DNA of 64,000 bases, from contig NZ_CP089301.1 in NCBI RefSeq assembly GCF_021227995.1, forward strand, positions 5,146,001 to 5,210,000, written 5' to 3'. A program made the position numbers and the translations under genes. The notes beneath the pieces are model-generated. The model had not been told where the DNA came from, ran no database searches, and saw nothing but the letters and a program-made list of their open reading frames with translations. Of the stretch, positions 1 to 48,378 are shown piece by piece (the stretch's first letter is position 1; every line of letters begins with the position of its first letter). Source of the DNA: Novosphingobium kaempferiae (GTDB taxonomy: Bacteria; Pseudomonadota; Alphaproteobacteria; Sphingomonadales; Sphingomonadaceae).

Positions 1-1520
1 TTGCCGGCCAGACAGGCGATCAATTCCGCCGAGGAAATTATCTCGCTCGGGTAAAGGTCCATCATCTGGCCGCCGGCAAGCCCGTCCTGACCCACGCTTC
101 GAGCAAGGCGCAGCACTAGTTCAGCACGCACGCCCGCATGGTGATGCGTACGGGGATCCGCCAGTATCTCGAACGCAAGCGCGAGCAGTGCATCCCCGGC
201 GAGCAGAGCAGTGGCTTCGTCGAATTGGCGGTGCGCCGTTGGCCTTCCGCGCCGCAGGTCGTCGTTGTCCATGCAGGGGAGATCGTCATGAACGAGAGAC
301 TGGGCGTGGACGCATTCGATGGCTGCCGCAGCGCGCAACGCCATGCTTCTGGTCCCGCCCAGCATCTGCGTCACCGTAACGGTGAGAGCGGCGCGAAACC
401 GCTTGCCTCCTGAGGTCGCTGCGTAGCGCATGGCATCGGCAAGACGCAGACTTCGCGCGGGCATATCGCCGATCGCCTCGAGAATGGCCTCGTCAACATC
501 CCGGCGGATGTCTGCCAGGATCGCCGCGGCATCGGATCGCTCGCGGCCCGGAAGTGTAACCGGCACCGGTCGAAATCTCATGCCTTCCTCCGTTCCGGCC
601 ACCTCGCTGAAACCGAACCCGTGTTCACGCAGCCAGGCGCATACTTCCTCGATCACCTCGTCAGGAGCCGATGCTGCCGCGCTGAGACCAACCCTCATGG
701 CGGCAGCGGGGAAACGCGATGCCAGATCGTCGGCGCCTTCGACCAACAGGCCCTGAGGGCATCCGGCAGCAATCGCGGTCTCGACGAGCCGGCGCGCATT
801 CGATGACATCGGATCGCCAACGATCACCACCACATCGCATTGCGCAGCGATCTCGACGACAGCGGCCTGGCGGTTGGTCGTTGCATAACAGATGTCGCTT
901 GTGCGAGGCCCCGCGCAGTCCGGAAATCGGGTCTTTATGGCCTTGATCATGCTGTCTGCCTCGCCGACGGAGAACGTGGTCTGAACCGCATAAGCAACCG
1001 GCGTGTCGTCAGGAAGTATTAAGGCATTGACGTCCGTCACGGTGCCGACCACCGAAATACTTGCGCGGGGGACCTGCCCAATTGTCCCAATGATCTCCGG
1101 GTGATCGAGGTGTCCGACGAGTACGACATGTCGGCCCTGCAGATGCCACTGGACTACTTCGGCATGCACCTTGGCTACAAGCGGACATATCGCATCGACA
1201 ACCCGCAGCTTGCCCCGCCGAGCCGCCTCTTTCACAGCAGTTGCGCTGCCATGGGCGGAGAGGATGGTAACTGCGCCTTGCGGTATTTCGCTCACATCCT
1301 GAACGAAAACTGCCCCAAGGCGCTCGAGACGCGCGACTACCTGGCGATTGTGCACGATTGCGCGGCGAACGTAGACCGGGGCGCCATGGGCGGCCAATGC
1401 GTCTTCGACGGCGGCTATAGCCCGCCGCACACCTGCACAGAAGCCACGCGGATTGGCTAGCAGCACCGACTTGCACCCAGCCGCGTGTCTTTGATCGAGA
1501 TACAAGCTTTGTGAAACCAT
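1..1520 (-). CDS. IspH (HMBPP reductase) fused to a GGPP/FPP-type prenyl synthase, partial
   Basis: One frame stays open from ATG at 1520 to the left edge (506 codons, no stop; I checked every codon). Residues about 17-325 are IspH/LytB, the last MEP-pathway enzyme (HMBPP to IPP plus DMAPP): NPRGFCAG with cluster Cys28, His57, SAHG, CPLVAKVH (Cys112), HPE, and DICYATTNRQ (Cys211), so all three Fe-S cysteines are present. Residues about 340 onward are a trans-prenyl synthase: GGKRFR at 371-376 and the first Asp-rich motif DDLPCMD at 412-418. The second Asp-rich motif lies outside the window. The start has a TTAGGAT-like ribosome site. It is divergent from a CrtI-like gene, suggesting that C5 units made by one domain are elongated by the other for carotenoids. 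Whether both domains are active is inference. Confidence 0.9.
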   Translation of the reverse strand, partial: MVSQSLYLDQRHAAGCKSVLLANPRGFCAGVRRAIAAVEDALAAHGAPVYVRRAIVHNRQVVARLERLGAVFVQDVSEIPQGAVTILSAHGSATAVKEAARRGKLRVVDAICPLVAKVHAEVVQWHLQGRHVVLVGHLDHPEIIGTIGQVPRASISVVGTVTDVNALILPDDTPVAYAVQTTFSVGEADSMIKAIKTRFPDCAGPRTSDICYATTNRQAAVVEIAAQCDVVVIVGDPMSSNARRLVETAIAAGCPQGLLVEGADDLASRFPAAAMRVGLSAAASAPDEVIEEVCAWLREHGFGFSEVAGTEEGMRFRPVPVTLPGRERSDAAAILADIRRDVDEAILEAIGDMPARSLRLADAMRYAATSGGKRFRAALTVTVTQMLGGTRSMALRAAAAIECVHAQSLVHDDLPCMDNDDLRRGRPTAHRQFDEATALLAGDALLALAFEILADPRTHHHAGVRAELVLRLARSVGQDGLAGGQMMDLYPSEIISSAELIACLAG

Positions 1521-1602
1521 TTTCGTATTATCCTAACTCACTGGCACTGTTTCGTCTTTTTGCCCGGATTTCCACCCTCCCCTTTGGACAGGTAGTGCTA
1601 TG

Positions 1603-1658: not shown

Positions 1659-3137
1659 ATGCCTTCCAGATCCTGCGCTATTGTCATCGGGTCAGGCTTC
1701 GGCGGATTGGCACTCGCGATCCGTCTGCAGAGCGCGGGCATCGACACGACAGTGCTCGAAGCGCGCGACCGCCCTGGCGGCCGCGCCTATTGCTGGAAGC
1801 GGGAAGGGTACACCTTCGATGCCGGTCCTACTGTGATAACCGACCCGGCTTGCCTGGAAGAACTCTGGGCACTGTCGGGGAGCCAAATGGCCGATGATGT
1901 GACCTTGCGGACGGTCGACCCGTTCTATCGCCTTGTCTGGAACGATGGGACGCAGTTCGATTACTCGAACGACGATGCCCTACTGAAAGCAGAAATCGGC
2001 AAGCTCGATCCGCGGGATGTCGAGGGCTACAAACGTTTTCTGGCCTATTCCCGCGCGGTCTATCAGGAAGGATACGTGAAGCTTGGCGCCGTCCCGTTCC
2101 TCGACTTCAGAAGCATGCTGAAAGCGGCGCCCGCATTGGCCCGGCACAAAGCCTGGCAATCGGTGTATGCAACGGTTGCCTCTTTCGTGCGAAACGAGAA
2201 GTTGAGGCAGGTGCTGTCCTTCCACACATTGCTGGTCGGCGGCAATCCCATGAAGACGAGCAGCATTTATGCCCTCATTCACCATCTTGAAAAGCTGGGC
2301 GGGGTCTGGTGCGCAGCAGGCGGCACGAATGCGCTCATCGACGGGATGGCGGGGCTGTTCGAACGTCTGGGCGGGAGGCTGGTGCTGAACGAAAAGGTCC
2401 AGACAATCACGTACGAGGGCAGCCGGGTAACGGGCGTGGTCACCCAGTCCGGGCGCCGTTTCAGTGCCGACCAGATCGCCAGCAACGGGGATGTCGTGAG
2501 CACTTATGCGACGATCACCGGTTCCCGCTATGCCGCTCGCAAATTGCGCTCGCTGAAGTCCAAGCGCTTTTCACCCAGCCTGTTTGTGGTGCACCTTGGC
2601 TTGAAGGGTACGTTCCCGCGGATTGCCCATCATTCGATTCTGTTTTCGGATCGCTATGGGCCGTTGCTTGACGATATTTACAGGCACGGCCGCCTGCCCG
2701 AAGACCCTTCGATCTACTTGCACAATCCCGGCGCCAGCGATGCGAGTGTCGCCCCGGCTGGTAGATCGGCGTTTTATGCGCTGGCCCCCGTCCCCCACCT
2801 GGGTGCCGCACCGATCGATTGGGCCACAGAAGGAGATCGCTACCGGAAGATCGTCATCGAGCGCATCCGCGCCACGCTGATCCCGGACATCGACGATCGC
2901 CTCGAGGTCTGCTTTCACTATACGCCCCGCGACTTTGAAAGCGATCTGGGCGCTCATCTGGGCAGCGCTTTCAGTCTGGAGCCGACACTGACGCAAAGCG
3001 CGTGGTTCCGCGCCCACAACCGCGACGATCATTTCGGCAATCTCTTCCTCGTGGGCGCAGGCACCCATCCCGGCGCGGGCATTCCCGGTGTCGTCGGAAG
3101 TGCGAAGGCAACAGCAGGATTGATGATCGGACCATAA
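1659..3137 (+). CDS. crtI: CrtI-family phytoene desaturase
   Basis: 492 aa, the usual CrtI length. The N-terminus has the FAD-binding Rossmann motif IGSGFGGLALAIRLQ and an acidic residue at the second strand (VLEARDRPGGRA). The C-terminus carries the CrtI signature GNLFLVGAGTHPGAGIPGVV near residues 460-480. The family introduces double bonds into phytoene to give neurosporene or lycopene, using FAD at the membrane. A crtB, crtY or crtZ gene is not in the window. The divergent IspH/prenyl synthase fusion would supply GGPP. The upstream ribosome site is weak (AAGAATGG). A different polyene substrate cannot be excluded. Confidence 0.88.
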   Translation: MPSRSCAIVIGSGFGGLALAIRLQSAGIDTTVLEARDRPGGRAYCWKREGYTFDAGPTVITDPACLEELWALSGSQMADDVTLRTVDPFYRLVWNDGTQFDYSNDDALLKAEIGKLDPRDVEGYKRFLAYSRAVYQEGYVKLGAVPFLDFRSMLKAAPALARHKAWQSVYATVASFVRNEKLRQVLSFHTLLVGGNPMKTSSIYALIHHLEKLGGVWCAAGGTNALIDGMAGLFERLGGRLVLNEKVQTITYEGSRVTGVVTQSGRRFSADQIASNGDVVSTYATITGSRYAARKLRSLKSKRFSPSLFVVHLGLKGTFPRIAHHSILFSDRYGPLLDDIYRHGRLPEDPSIYLHNPGASDASVAPAGRSAFYALAPVPHLGAAPIDWATEGDRYRKIVIERIRATLIPDIDDRLEVCFHYTPRDFESDLGAHLGSAFSLEPTLTQSAWFRAHNRDDHFGNLFLVGAGTHPGAGIPGVVGSAKATAGLMIGP

Positions 3138-3316: not shown

Positions 3317-3676
3317 TCATTGCTGTTCGAGGGCGGACGCCTGGCGACCAAGCTCATTCGCCTTTTCACTCGCAGCTTGGCGGATTTCCTTTGCCTTCGC
3401 TTCCAGCTTGTCAGCTTCCGCATCTGCCTGCTCTTCTAGCAGTCGGCCCTGATCCTTGAGGGCATCGGCCTGCGAAGCGCGCATTTTTTCCTGAGCACGG
3501 TCAATTCGATCGGCTGCGGCTCCTGCCTTTTCCGCAGGCCCGCCACCCTTGTATTCACGCCCTGCTGCTTTGGCAGCGGCCTCGTCTTTTTGGGCCCCAG
3601 CCTTTTCCTTGGGTCCGTCACACCCGGCCACGAGCAATGCGAGTGAGGAGGCGCAGATGATGGATAGCGTCTTCAT
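3317..3676 (-). CDS. Small Ala/Lys/Glu-rich lipoprotein
   Basis: 119 aa. The N-terminus is a lipoprotein signal with lipobox LVAGC (Cys at residue 19). The rest is charged, rich in Ala, Glu, Lys and Gln, with heptad-like spacing (about residues 60-115), so a helical, probably coiled-coil periplasmic protein is expected. No enzymatic motif is visible. A GGAAC-N16-AGTT sequence (3685-3709, minus) lies very close upstream, leaving almost no leader, so its role is doubtful. Function unknown. Confidence 0.7.
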   Translation of the reverse strand: MKTLSIICASSLALLVAGCDGPKEKAGAQKDEAAAKAAGREYKGGGPAEKAGAAADRIDRAQEKMRASQADALKDQGRLLEEQADAEADKLEAKAKEIRQAASEKANELGRQASALEQQ

Positions 3677-46780: not shown

Positions 46781-48378
46781 CCACGAAGTACGACGCCATC
46801 ATCATCGGCGCCGGCCACAATGGCCTGACCTGCGCCTTCTACCTCGCGCGCGCGGGTCTCAAGGTGCGAGTTCTGGAACGGCGCGATGTCGTGGGCGGCG
46901 CGGCGGTGACGGAGGAATTCCACCCCGGATTCCGCAATTCGGTCGCCAGCTACACCGTGAGCCTGCTGCAACCCAAGGTGATCGCCGACATGCGGCTGGC
47001 CGACCATGGCTATCGCGTGATCGAGCGGCCGATCAGCAACTTCCTGCCGCAGGAGGACGGCGGTTACCTCAAGCTCGGCGGCGGGATGGAGCGCACACAG
47101 GCCGAGTTCCGCCGTTGCTCCGAACACGACGCGGCGGTGCTGCCTGCATACTACGACGCACTTGAGGGCGTGGCCGAGGTGCTGCGCGATCTTGCGCTGA
47201 AGACATCGCCCGAAGCTGGCGGCGGCTGGCGTGCGCTCGTCGATGCGGCATTGCAGGGCCGCAAGCTGGCGGGCCTCTCGATCGAGGCGCAGCGCGACGT
47301 GCTGGACCTCTTCACCAAATCCGCGCGCGGGCTCCTCGACGGCTGGTTCGAAAGCGAGGCGGTCAAGGCCGCATTCGGGTTCGACGCGGTAGTCGGCAAT
47401 TACGCATCGCCCGATACGCCGGGCAGTGCCTATGTGCTGCTGCACCACGTCTTCGGCGAAGTGAACGGCAAGAAGGGCGCATGGGGCCACTCGGTCGGCG
47501 GCATGGGCGCGATCACGCAGATAATGGCGAAGGTCTGCCGCGATCTTGGGGTCGAGATCAGTCTTGAGGCGCCGGTCGCGCAGGTTTTGGCGGACGGTGG
47601 CAGGGTCGCAGGCGTTCGCCTCGAAAGCGGTGAAGAGATCACCGCACCGCGAGTCATCGCCAACGTCGGACCTAAGCTGCTCTACGATCGGATGATCGCC
47701 CCGAGCGACCTTCCATCAGACTTCGCTCGCCGGATAAAGGGTTTCAAGGCAGGCAGCGGCACCTTCCGCATGAACGTCGCGCTGTCCGAACTGCCGCGCT
47801 TCACCTGCCTGCCCGAGCCGGGCGAGCATCACCGGTCCGGCATCATTATCGCGCCCACGCTCGACTACATGGATCGCGCCTTCATCGACGCCAAGCAGCT
47901 TGGCTGGTCGAGGAAGCCCATCGTCGAGATTCTGATCCCCTCGACCATAGACGACAGCCTCGCCCCTCCCGGCCAACACGTTGCCAGCCTGTTCTGCCAG
48001 CAGTTCGCACCCGAGCTGCCCGACGGACGTGACTGGGACGCGGAGGAAGGCAAGGCCGCCGACACCATCATCGATACCGTGGAAGAGTACGCGCCGGGCT
48101 TCCGCGCCTCGATCCTTGGGAGACAGGTGCTCAGCCCGAAGGGGCTGGAGCGCAAGTTCGGACTGGTCGGCGGCGATATCATGCATGGCAACCTGACGCT
48201 CGACCAGATGTGGTCGGCGCGGCCGGTGCTGGGCCACGGCGCCTATCGCGGCCCCATCAAGGGGCTCTACATGTGCGGCGCGGGCACGCATCCCGGAGGC
48301 GGCGTGACCGGAGCGCCCGGCCACAACTGCGCGCATGAGGTGATCGCCGACAAGGGCCGGTTCAAGCGGTTCCGCTGA
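46777..48378 (+). CDS. FAD-dependent oxidoreductase of the PYROXD2/CrtI-like group
   Basis: 533 aa, ATG overlapping the Rieske stop by 4 nt. N-terminal FAD motif AIIIGAGHNGLTCAFYLARAG and ERRDVVGGAAVTEEFHPGFRNSV; C-terminal signature GLYMCGAGTHPGGGVTGAPGHNCA as in phytoene-desaturase-like proteins. Likely oxidises or isomerises the oxygenase product; no carotenoid genes are nearby, so a carotenoid role is unlikely. Convergent with the amidohydrolase gene. Confidence 0.88.
   Translation: MTTKYDAIIIGAGHNGLTCAFYLARAGLKVRVLERRDVVGGAAVTEEFHPGFRNSVASYTVSLLQPKVIADMRLADHGYRVIERPISNFLPQEDGGYLKLGGGMERTQAEFRRCSEHDAAVLPAYYDALEGVAEVLRDLALKTSPEAGGGWRALVDAALQGRKLAGLSIEAQRDVLDLFTKSARGLLDGWFESEAVKAAFGFDAVVGNYASPDTPGSAYVLLHHVFGEVNGKKGAWGHSVGGMGAITQIMAKVCRDLGVEISLEAPVAQVLADGGRVAGVRLESGEEITAPRVIANVGPKLLYDRMIAPSDLPSDFARRIKGFKAGSGTFRMNVALSELPRFTCLPEPGEHHRSGIIIAPTLDYMDRAFIDAKQLGWSRKPIVEILIPSTIDDSLAPPGQHVASLFCQQFAPELPDGRDWDAEEGKAADTIIDTVEEYAPGFRASILGRQVLSPKGLERKFGLVGGDIMHGNLTLDQMWSARPVLGHGAYRGPIKGLYMCGAGTHPGGGVTGAPGHNCAHEVIADKGRFKRFR

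Follow-up and report, generated by a model that had tools for sequence, protein, structure and literature searches.

An IspH-trans-prenyl synthase fusion in carotenoid loci of Sphingomonadaceae, probably a bifunctional carotenoid-supply enzyme

Proteins in which IspH is fused to another protein have been described before. A 2015 survey of 15,660 IspHs names fusion partners other than the one reported here, for example in IspH-UbiA and IspH-RPS1 (PMC4746011). The present protein likewise has an N-terminal IspH fused to another protein and, like IspH-UbiA, joins IspH to a prenyl-processing enzyme; it differs from both in its partner, a trans-prenyl synthase (PF00348), in its occurrence in Sphingomonadaceae and in being an extra copy located within carotenoid loci. 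The terms polyprenyl, farnesyl, GGPP and FPPS do not occur in the main text of the survey, and its section on fusion types gives no prenyl synthase partner. A word search of the retrieved text of an IspH review (PMC9745026) returned neither 'fusion' nor 'fused', a nostoxanthin study mentions two ispH copies (PMC9950776), and among the titles and abstract openings listed in our literature search, outside which lay subscription journals and preprints, none mentions an IspH-prenyl synthase fusion. The fusion is real and conserved, brings a new partner to the known habit of IspH to fuse, and is probably a bifunctional carotenoid-supply enzyme. The proteins themselves are already in databases, and the novelty is in recognising their architecture, carotenoid clade and context; because the records shown with source names are labelled IspH (mostly) or hypothetical protein, a carotenoid role is hidden.

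Compared with stand-alone IspH (LytB), the fusion keeps the fold, the three cysteines and the active-site residues, but its clade (SH-aLRT 100) excludes the sampled housekeeping IspHs and other second IspHs, and it carries a C-terminal synthase. With stand-alone CrtE-type GGPP synthases it shares both Asp motifs, two extra residues in the first of these, the lack of an aromatic residue four or five positions before it (-4/-5), and crt neighbours; unlike them it is fused to IspH, and its NCBIfam score is higher against the FPP synthase model than against CrtE, in each case under the cut-off. The two halves correspond to the last step of the MEP pathway and the step that builds the C20 chain. 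If active, the fusion would be nature's own solution to a problem of metabolic engineering, that of an oxygen-sensitive IspH feeding a GGPP synthase.

The fusion gene and its distribution

The window (the whole 64-kb stretch of DNA analysed, C1:5146001-5210000) belongs to a genome of 5.70 Mb in one contig (G000). A minus-strand frame is open from the ATG at 1520 to the window edge, with 506 residues inside the window, and 345 further bases, stop included, complete a frame of 621 aa (C1:5145655-5147520, read beyond the window edge). The features of the locus, in window coordinates, are:

1..1520, minus strand, onward 345 bases to the stop at G000 C1:5145655: fusion gene of ispH and a probable GGPP synthase (621 aa), open frame
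630..1466, minus strand: IspH/LytB domain, residues 19-297 (PF02401, E 9.8e-79; residue census)
1437-1439, 1185-1187 and 888-890, minus strand: codons of the IspH cysteines (residue census)
501..566, minus strand: linker, residues 319-340 (fast-evolving; pLDDT below 50 at 324-329)
1..443, minus strand: in-window part of the trans-prenyl synthase domain, residues 360-594 (PF00348, E 3.7e-50)
393-410, 267-287 and 300-302, minus strand: GGKRFR motif, first Asp motif and codon of Gln407 in the synthase
1583..1593, plus strand: candidate operator motif TTKGGACAKGT, in the gap separating crtI from the divergently oriented fusion gene, common to several loci
1659..3137, plus strand: crtI, phytoene desaturase family (TIGR02734, 640.5 bits, cut-off 238.1)

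An earlier note on this DNA had described a complete IspH with three cysteines, followed in frame by the GGKRFR and DDLPCMD motifs of a prenyl synthase, and had proposed that a second Asp motif and the stop be sought to the left. All of this was borne out. Both domains are complete, with Pfam scores of 264.8 bits for LYTB (cut-off 24.5) and 170.9 bits for polyprenyl_synt (cut-off 27), and the TIGR00216 score is 273.9 against a cut-off of 187.85. The cysteines are residues 28, 112 and 211, and the synthase motifs lie at residues 371-376 (GGKRFR), 412-418 (DDLPCMD) and, outside the window, 548-552 (DDLLD, the second Asp motif). GGKRFR is downstream of IspH as the note had it, but at about 53 residues from the end of the IspH part (near residue 318) and not at 40-50.

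A search of a protein set clustered at 90% identity scored 7,996 candidates; 1,578 of them passed the E 0.001 limit, and we examined the best 120. All 120, one of them the window's own protein, carry both Pfam domains, so that, in the sense of the Rosetta-stone criterion, IspH and a second domain of predicted function share one chain in 120/120 of these as well as in seven genomes and on one plasmid. Source names among them include Novosphingobium, Sphingobium and Sphingosinicella, as well as one Erythrobacter and a metagenome bin labelled 'Pseudomonas', and the architecture is kept down to 53% identity to the window protein among the homologues listed. In the alignment of 121 rows, which counts the window protein twice (P0002, P0003), Cys28 is present in 119 rows (the other two have gaps) and Cys112 and Cys211 in all 121. 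The IspH active-site region is essentially invariant, and the fusion conserves the positions that correspond to active-site residues of E. coli IspH. The first-motif Asp residues occur in 121/121 rows and those of the second motif in 120-121.

Of 72,556 plasmid records, one has a match spanning 80% or more of the query, plasmid pKN1 of Sphingobium yanoikuyae CC4533, where a fusion of 76.7% identity is annotated as plain ispH and stands in the same gene order as in the window (fusion, crtI, PAS-domain gene, FAD oxidoreductase, SDR gene). Between the window gene and this copy pN/pS is 0.19 for IspH, 0.20 for the synthase and 0.71 for the linker; comparison of the window gene with all seven loci gives 0.19-0.43 (IspH), 0.20-0.52 (synthase) and 0.67-1.42 (linker), synonymous sites being near saturation in the distant pairs. 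Judged by these ratios and the alignment, purifying selection acts on both active sites, which are conserved.

Full-length fusions were found in 2/61 genomes, the window's own counted, in 4/397 genomes of the family and in 4/296 of the order. These overlapping sets combine to seven fusion genomes (G000, G008, G068, G121, G145, G520 and G539), all of the window's family (f1). The class sample (1/385) and the phylum sample (1/398) each gave the window's own genome; the family, order, class and phylum searches applied stringent E-value limits, with few candidates scored per genome, so that distant independent fusions could escape them. In a scan of contigs for the fusion, the best segments of at least 80 loci fell in or near the IspH part. 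Among the sampled genomes the fusion is confined to the window's family, which the names of the nearest proteins and of the plasmid host indicate to be Sphingomonadaceae, and is sporadic there. All seven genomes also encode IspH and IspA as separate proteins. The fusion was considered, and rejected, as the cell's sole ispH: the search for a second, stand-alone copy that the note had advised found one in the window's genome at C1:263107-263940. The fusion gene is an accessory second copy beside housekeeping IspH and IspA.

The carotenoid locus and its candidate light regulator

A crtI beside the fusion, already noticed in the window, is present in 8/8 fusion loci (the seven genomes and pKN1), and CrtB and CrtY are present in four of the eight (L137, L138, L139 and L141, the L139 copies by Pfam scan). 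The window's genome has crtY, crtI and crtB at C1:1.068-1.073 Mb, about 4.1 Mb from the fusion in contig numbering, or 1.6 Mb in the opposite direction should the contig be circular. Genomes G427 and G562 have crtI and crtB with no such synthase within the 20 kb examined, so GGPP is apparently available from elsewhere. A small lipoprotein-like frame at window 3317-3676 also has a counterpart near the G379 carotenoid locus (L145:6095-6421), and a long open frame at window 46795-48312 gives a weak CrtI-family match (124 bits, below the cut-off of 238).

Five of the eight fusion loci (L003, L105, L139, L140 and L141) have a full-length LOV-HTH gene. Only a 65-70 aa piece was found in L136 and none in L137 and L138 within the stretch examined, so that any light control is not universal. 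The best solved relative of the LOV-HTH protein is EL222, a blue-light-activated DNA-binding protein, which it matches over residues 10-196 of 196 (E 3.3e-56), and the LOV Cys is kept in 10/10 aligned neighbours. The usual LOV site is GxNCRFLQ; that of the window reads GRNCRFLR. A DPRP photolyase-related gene outside the window (L003:5263-6839, G000 C1:5141263-5142839) is in two overlapping frames; its counterpart in G008 is in one long frame (L141:5101-6615), and the two-frame version is a broken gene or a sequencing slip.

Any target sites of the LOV-HTH protein are putative. The EL222 consensus RGNCYWWRGNCY, as given in PMC10521638, was tried as the operator of the crtI-fusion gap and rejected, with no match there within one mismatch; over L003 it gives 18 matches against 15.5 expected, which is chance level. 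TTKGGACAKGT differs from this consensus. Among 21 loci scanned it is present in the fusion-crtI gap of L003, L105, L136, L139, L141 and the broken locus L142 (which has one more elsewhere), and absent from the gaps of L137, L138 and L140. The motif was chosen after sight of the sequences, and its single match in the 64-kb window compares with 0.05 expected, one match being reached in 5/100 shuffles.

Proposed function and competing readings

Our preferred reading (probability about 0.75) is that the fusion is an accessory bifunctional HMBPP reductase/GGPP synthase supplying carotenoid synthesis and, in many carriers, perhaps under an EL222-type blue-light regulator. The N-terminal IspH domain would reduce HMBPP to IPP and DMAPP, the tethered C-terminal domain would condense these to GGPP for phytoene synthase, and expression in many carriers would probably be under the EL222-type regulator. 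From motifs, selection and gene neighbourhood, each of which is directly observed, we infer both catalytic activities, GGPP as product and the light control. In Foldseek comparisons the IspH half matches E. coli IspH (3f7t, target-normalised TM 0.94) and the synthase half an FPPS (4lls). Against this reading count the two missed synthase cut-offs, the failure to find a full-length LOV-HTH gene in three fusion loci, the departure of the window's LOV site from the usual form, the chance-level EL222 consensus, the distant crtY, crtI and crtB of the window's genome, and the crtI-crtB loci of G427 and G562.

A narrower form of this reading, compatible with it, has somewhat better than even chances: both domains are active, and the fusion merely sets their stoichiometry and co-expression while the C5 units mix with the cell pool. 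The linker is the fastest-changing part of the protein, variable in sequence and of low pLDDT. An AlphaFold2 model (120 sequences; mean pLDDT 88.7) is mostly confident within the domains, weaker at about 550-570, with low-confidence segments at 1-13 and 324-329; its pTM is just 0.55, so the predicted arrangement of the two domains is uncertain. Overlapping but unfused genes exist (L145, L148), and the crt locus of G242 has a synthase without ispH. Against this narrower form stand the near-constant length of the linker (F316 to L360 spans 47 residues in 108/121 rows) and the retention of the fusion down to 53% identity. With a fast-evolving linker and a domain arrangement that the model leaves uncertain, tethering and co-expression account for the data equally well, and channelling is a hypothesis. 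In its fullest form, which we consider speculative and rather improbable, a blue-light-induced HMBPP-to-GGPP enzyme would, in cells without isomerase, release IPP and DMAPP from IspH near the 3:1 ratio that GGPP needs and pass both to the tethered synthase, bypassing the housekeeping IspH/IspA pool. No type I isomerase (Idi) match was found in the window's genome and the best type II match scores 44.8 against 281.3 bits; with Idi not found there, IspH would set the IPP:DMAPP ratio. If the fusion is active, the natural fused, overlapping-unfused and synthase-only versions make C5 channelling testable by comparison.

It is unlikely, in our view, that the synthase half yields FPP or a mixture, so that the protein mainly feeds other isoprenoids. 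The top NCBIfam synthase match is to the FPP synthase model (NF045485), whose cut-off is just missed (265.6 vs 275 bits), ahead of CrtE (NF045685, 219.3 vs 460), and by fold the closest solved synthases are FPPS (Foldseek, 4lls, target-normalised TM 0.95). The CrtE score being under its cut-off, the fusion is not filed as a CrtE equivalog, and because neither cut-off is reached GGPP is a product that we infer. Large residues at -4/-5 halt elongation at FPP, a rule that mutants support, and type II GGPP synthases are described as having no aromatics there (PMC7261888). The fusion has two extra residues in its first Asp motif, as type II GGPP synthases do, and an aromatic at -4/-5 in none of the 121 rows, which argues against FPP: residue -5 is Gln in all of them and residue -4 is Ser in 120 and Leu in one. 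By locus, -5 is Gln in 8/8 fusion loci and the G242 gene, His in the unfused synthases of G379 and G564, and Tyr in 16/16 IspA, one of nine positions that separate the 11 carotenoid-locus from the 16 IspA sequences. The synthase tree also sets the fusion apart from IspA (98/97), and its neighbours are crt genes. Since -5 is Gln (His where unfused) at the place where all 16 IspA carry Tyr, the synthase half, which the note had left as of GGPP/FPP type, is a prenyl synthase as stated and probably a GGPP rather than an FPP synthase.

Still less probable is that the IspH half has lost catalysis and gates the synthase as a redox or iron sensor. Each of the seven fusion genomes has a separate IspH, and IspH-RPS1 has been proposed as a sensor (PMC4746011); against it, the three cysteines and the counterparts of the E. 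coli active-site residues are conserved, and purifying selection on the IspH half is strong. An assembly or sequencing artefact concealing two separate genes, for which the note had named a sequencing error near 420-560 hiding a stop or frameshift, is rejected as having next to no chance, the same in-frame join occurring in 119 other proteins of the 90%-identity-clustered set and on a finished plasmid.

Origin of the fusion

In a tree of 68 IspH rows, built by a quick method with SH-aLRT support only, the fused halves group (100) with stand-alone IspHs encoded in carotenoid-type loci, and both housekeeping IspHs and those of hopanoid-like loci fall outside this group. Two loci of the latter kind, L154 and L155, have another second IspH; they have in common a long cyclase-like protein and a dxs-like one, and presumably resemble hopanoid clusters. 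Within the carotenoid-locus group the fused halves cluster (98) with one fragment from G131 (L142:10300-12500), a fusion broken after about residue 259 and followed by frames that look transposase-like by eye. The ispH and synthase genes of G379 overlap by 7 nt, and those of G564 have an ATGA overlap, provided the synthase starts at that ATG.

The synthase tree has 37 rows and was rebuilt without Paracoccus CrtE, a very long branch, and with 10 of 20 added database rows. It splits IspA from all carotenoid-locus synthases. The synthase-only gene of G242 nests among the fused synthases (93/86), which suggests that G242 lost the ispH half of a fusion. A single clade of fused synthases is not rejected (AU p 0.43), though the G242 gene falls inside it in the best tree. 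We think that an overlapping ispH/synthase pair preceded the fusion; the trees are compatible with either order.

GC content is 0.605 in L003 and 0.625 in the fusion gene; three other parts of the genome have 0.66-0.68. This lower GC and the plasmid copy together suggest that the fusion region was acquired by gene transfer. Over the window (1-64000) and 26 kb leftward of it, GC in 2- to 4-kb steps is about 0.58-0.66, a possible acquired region.
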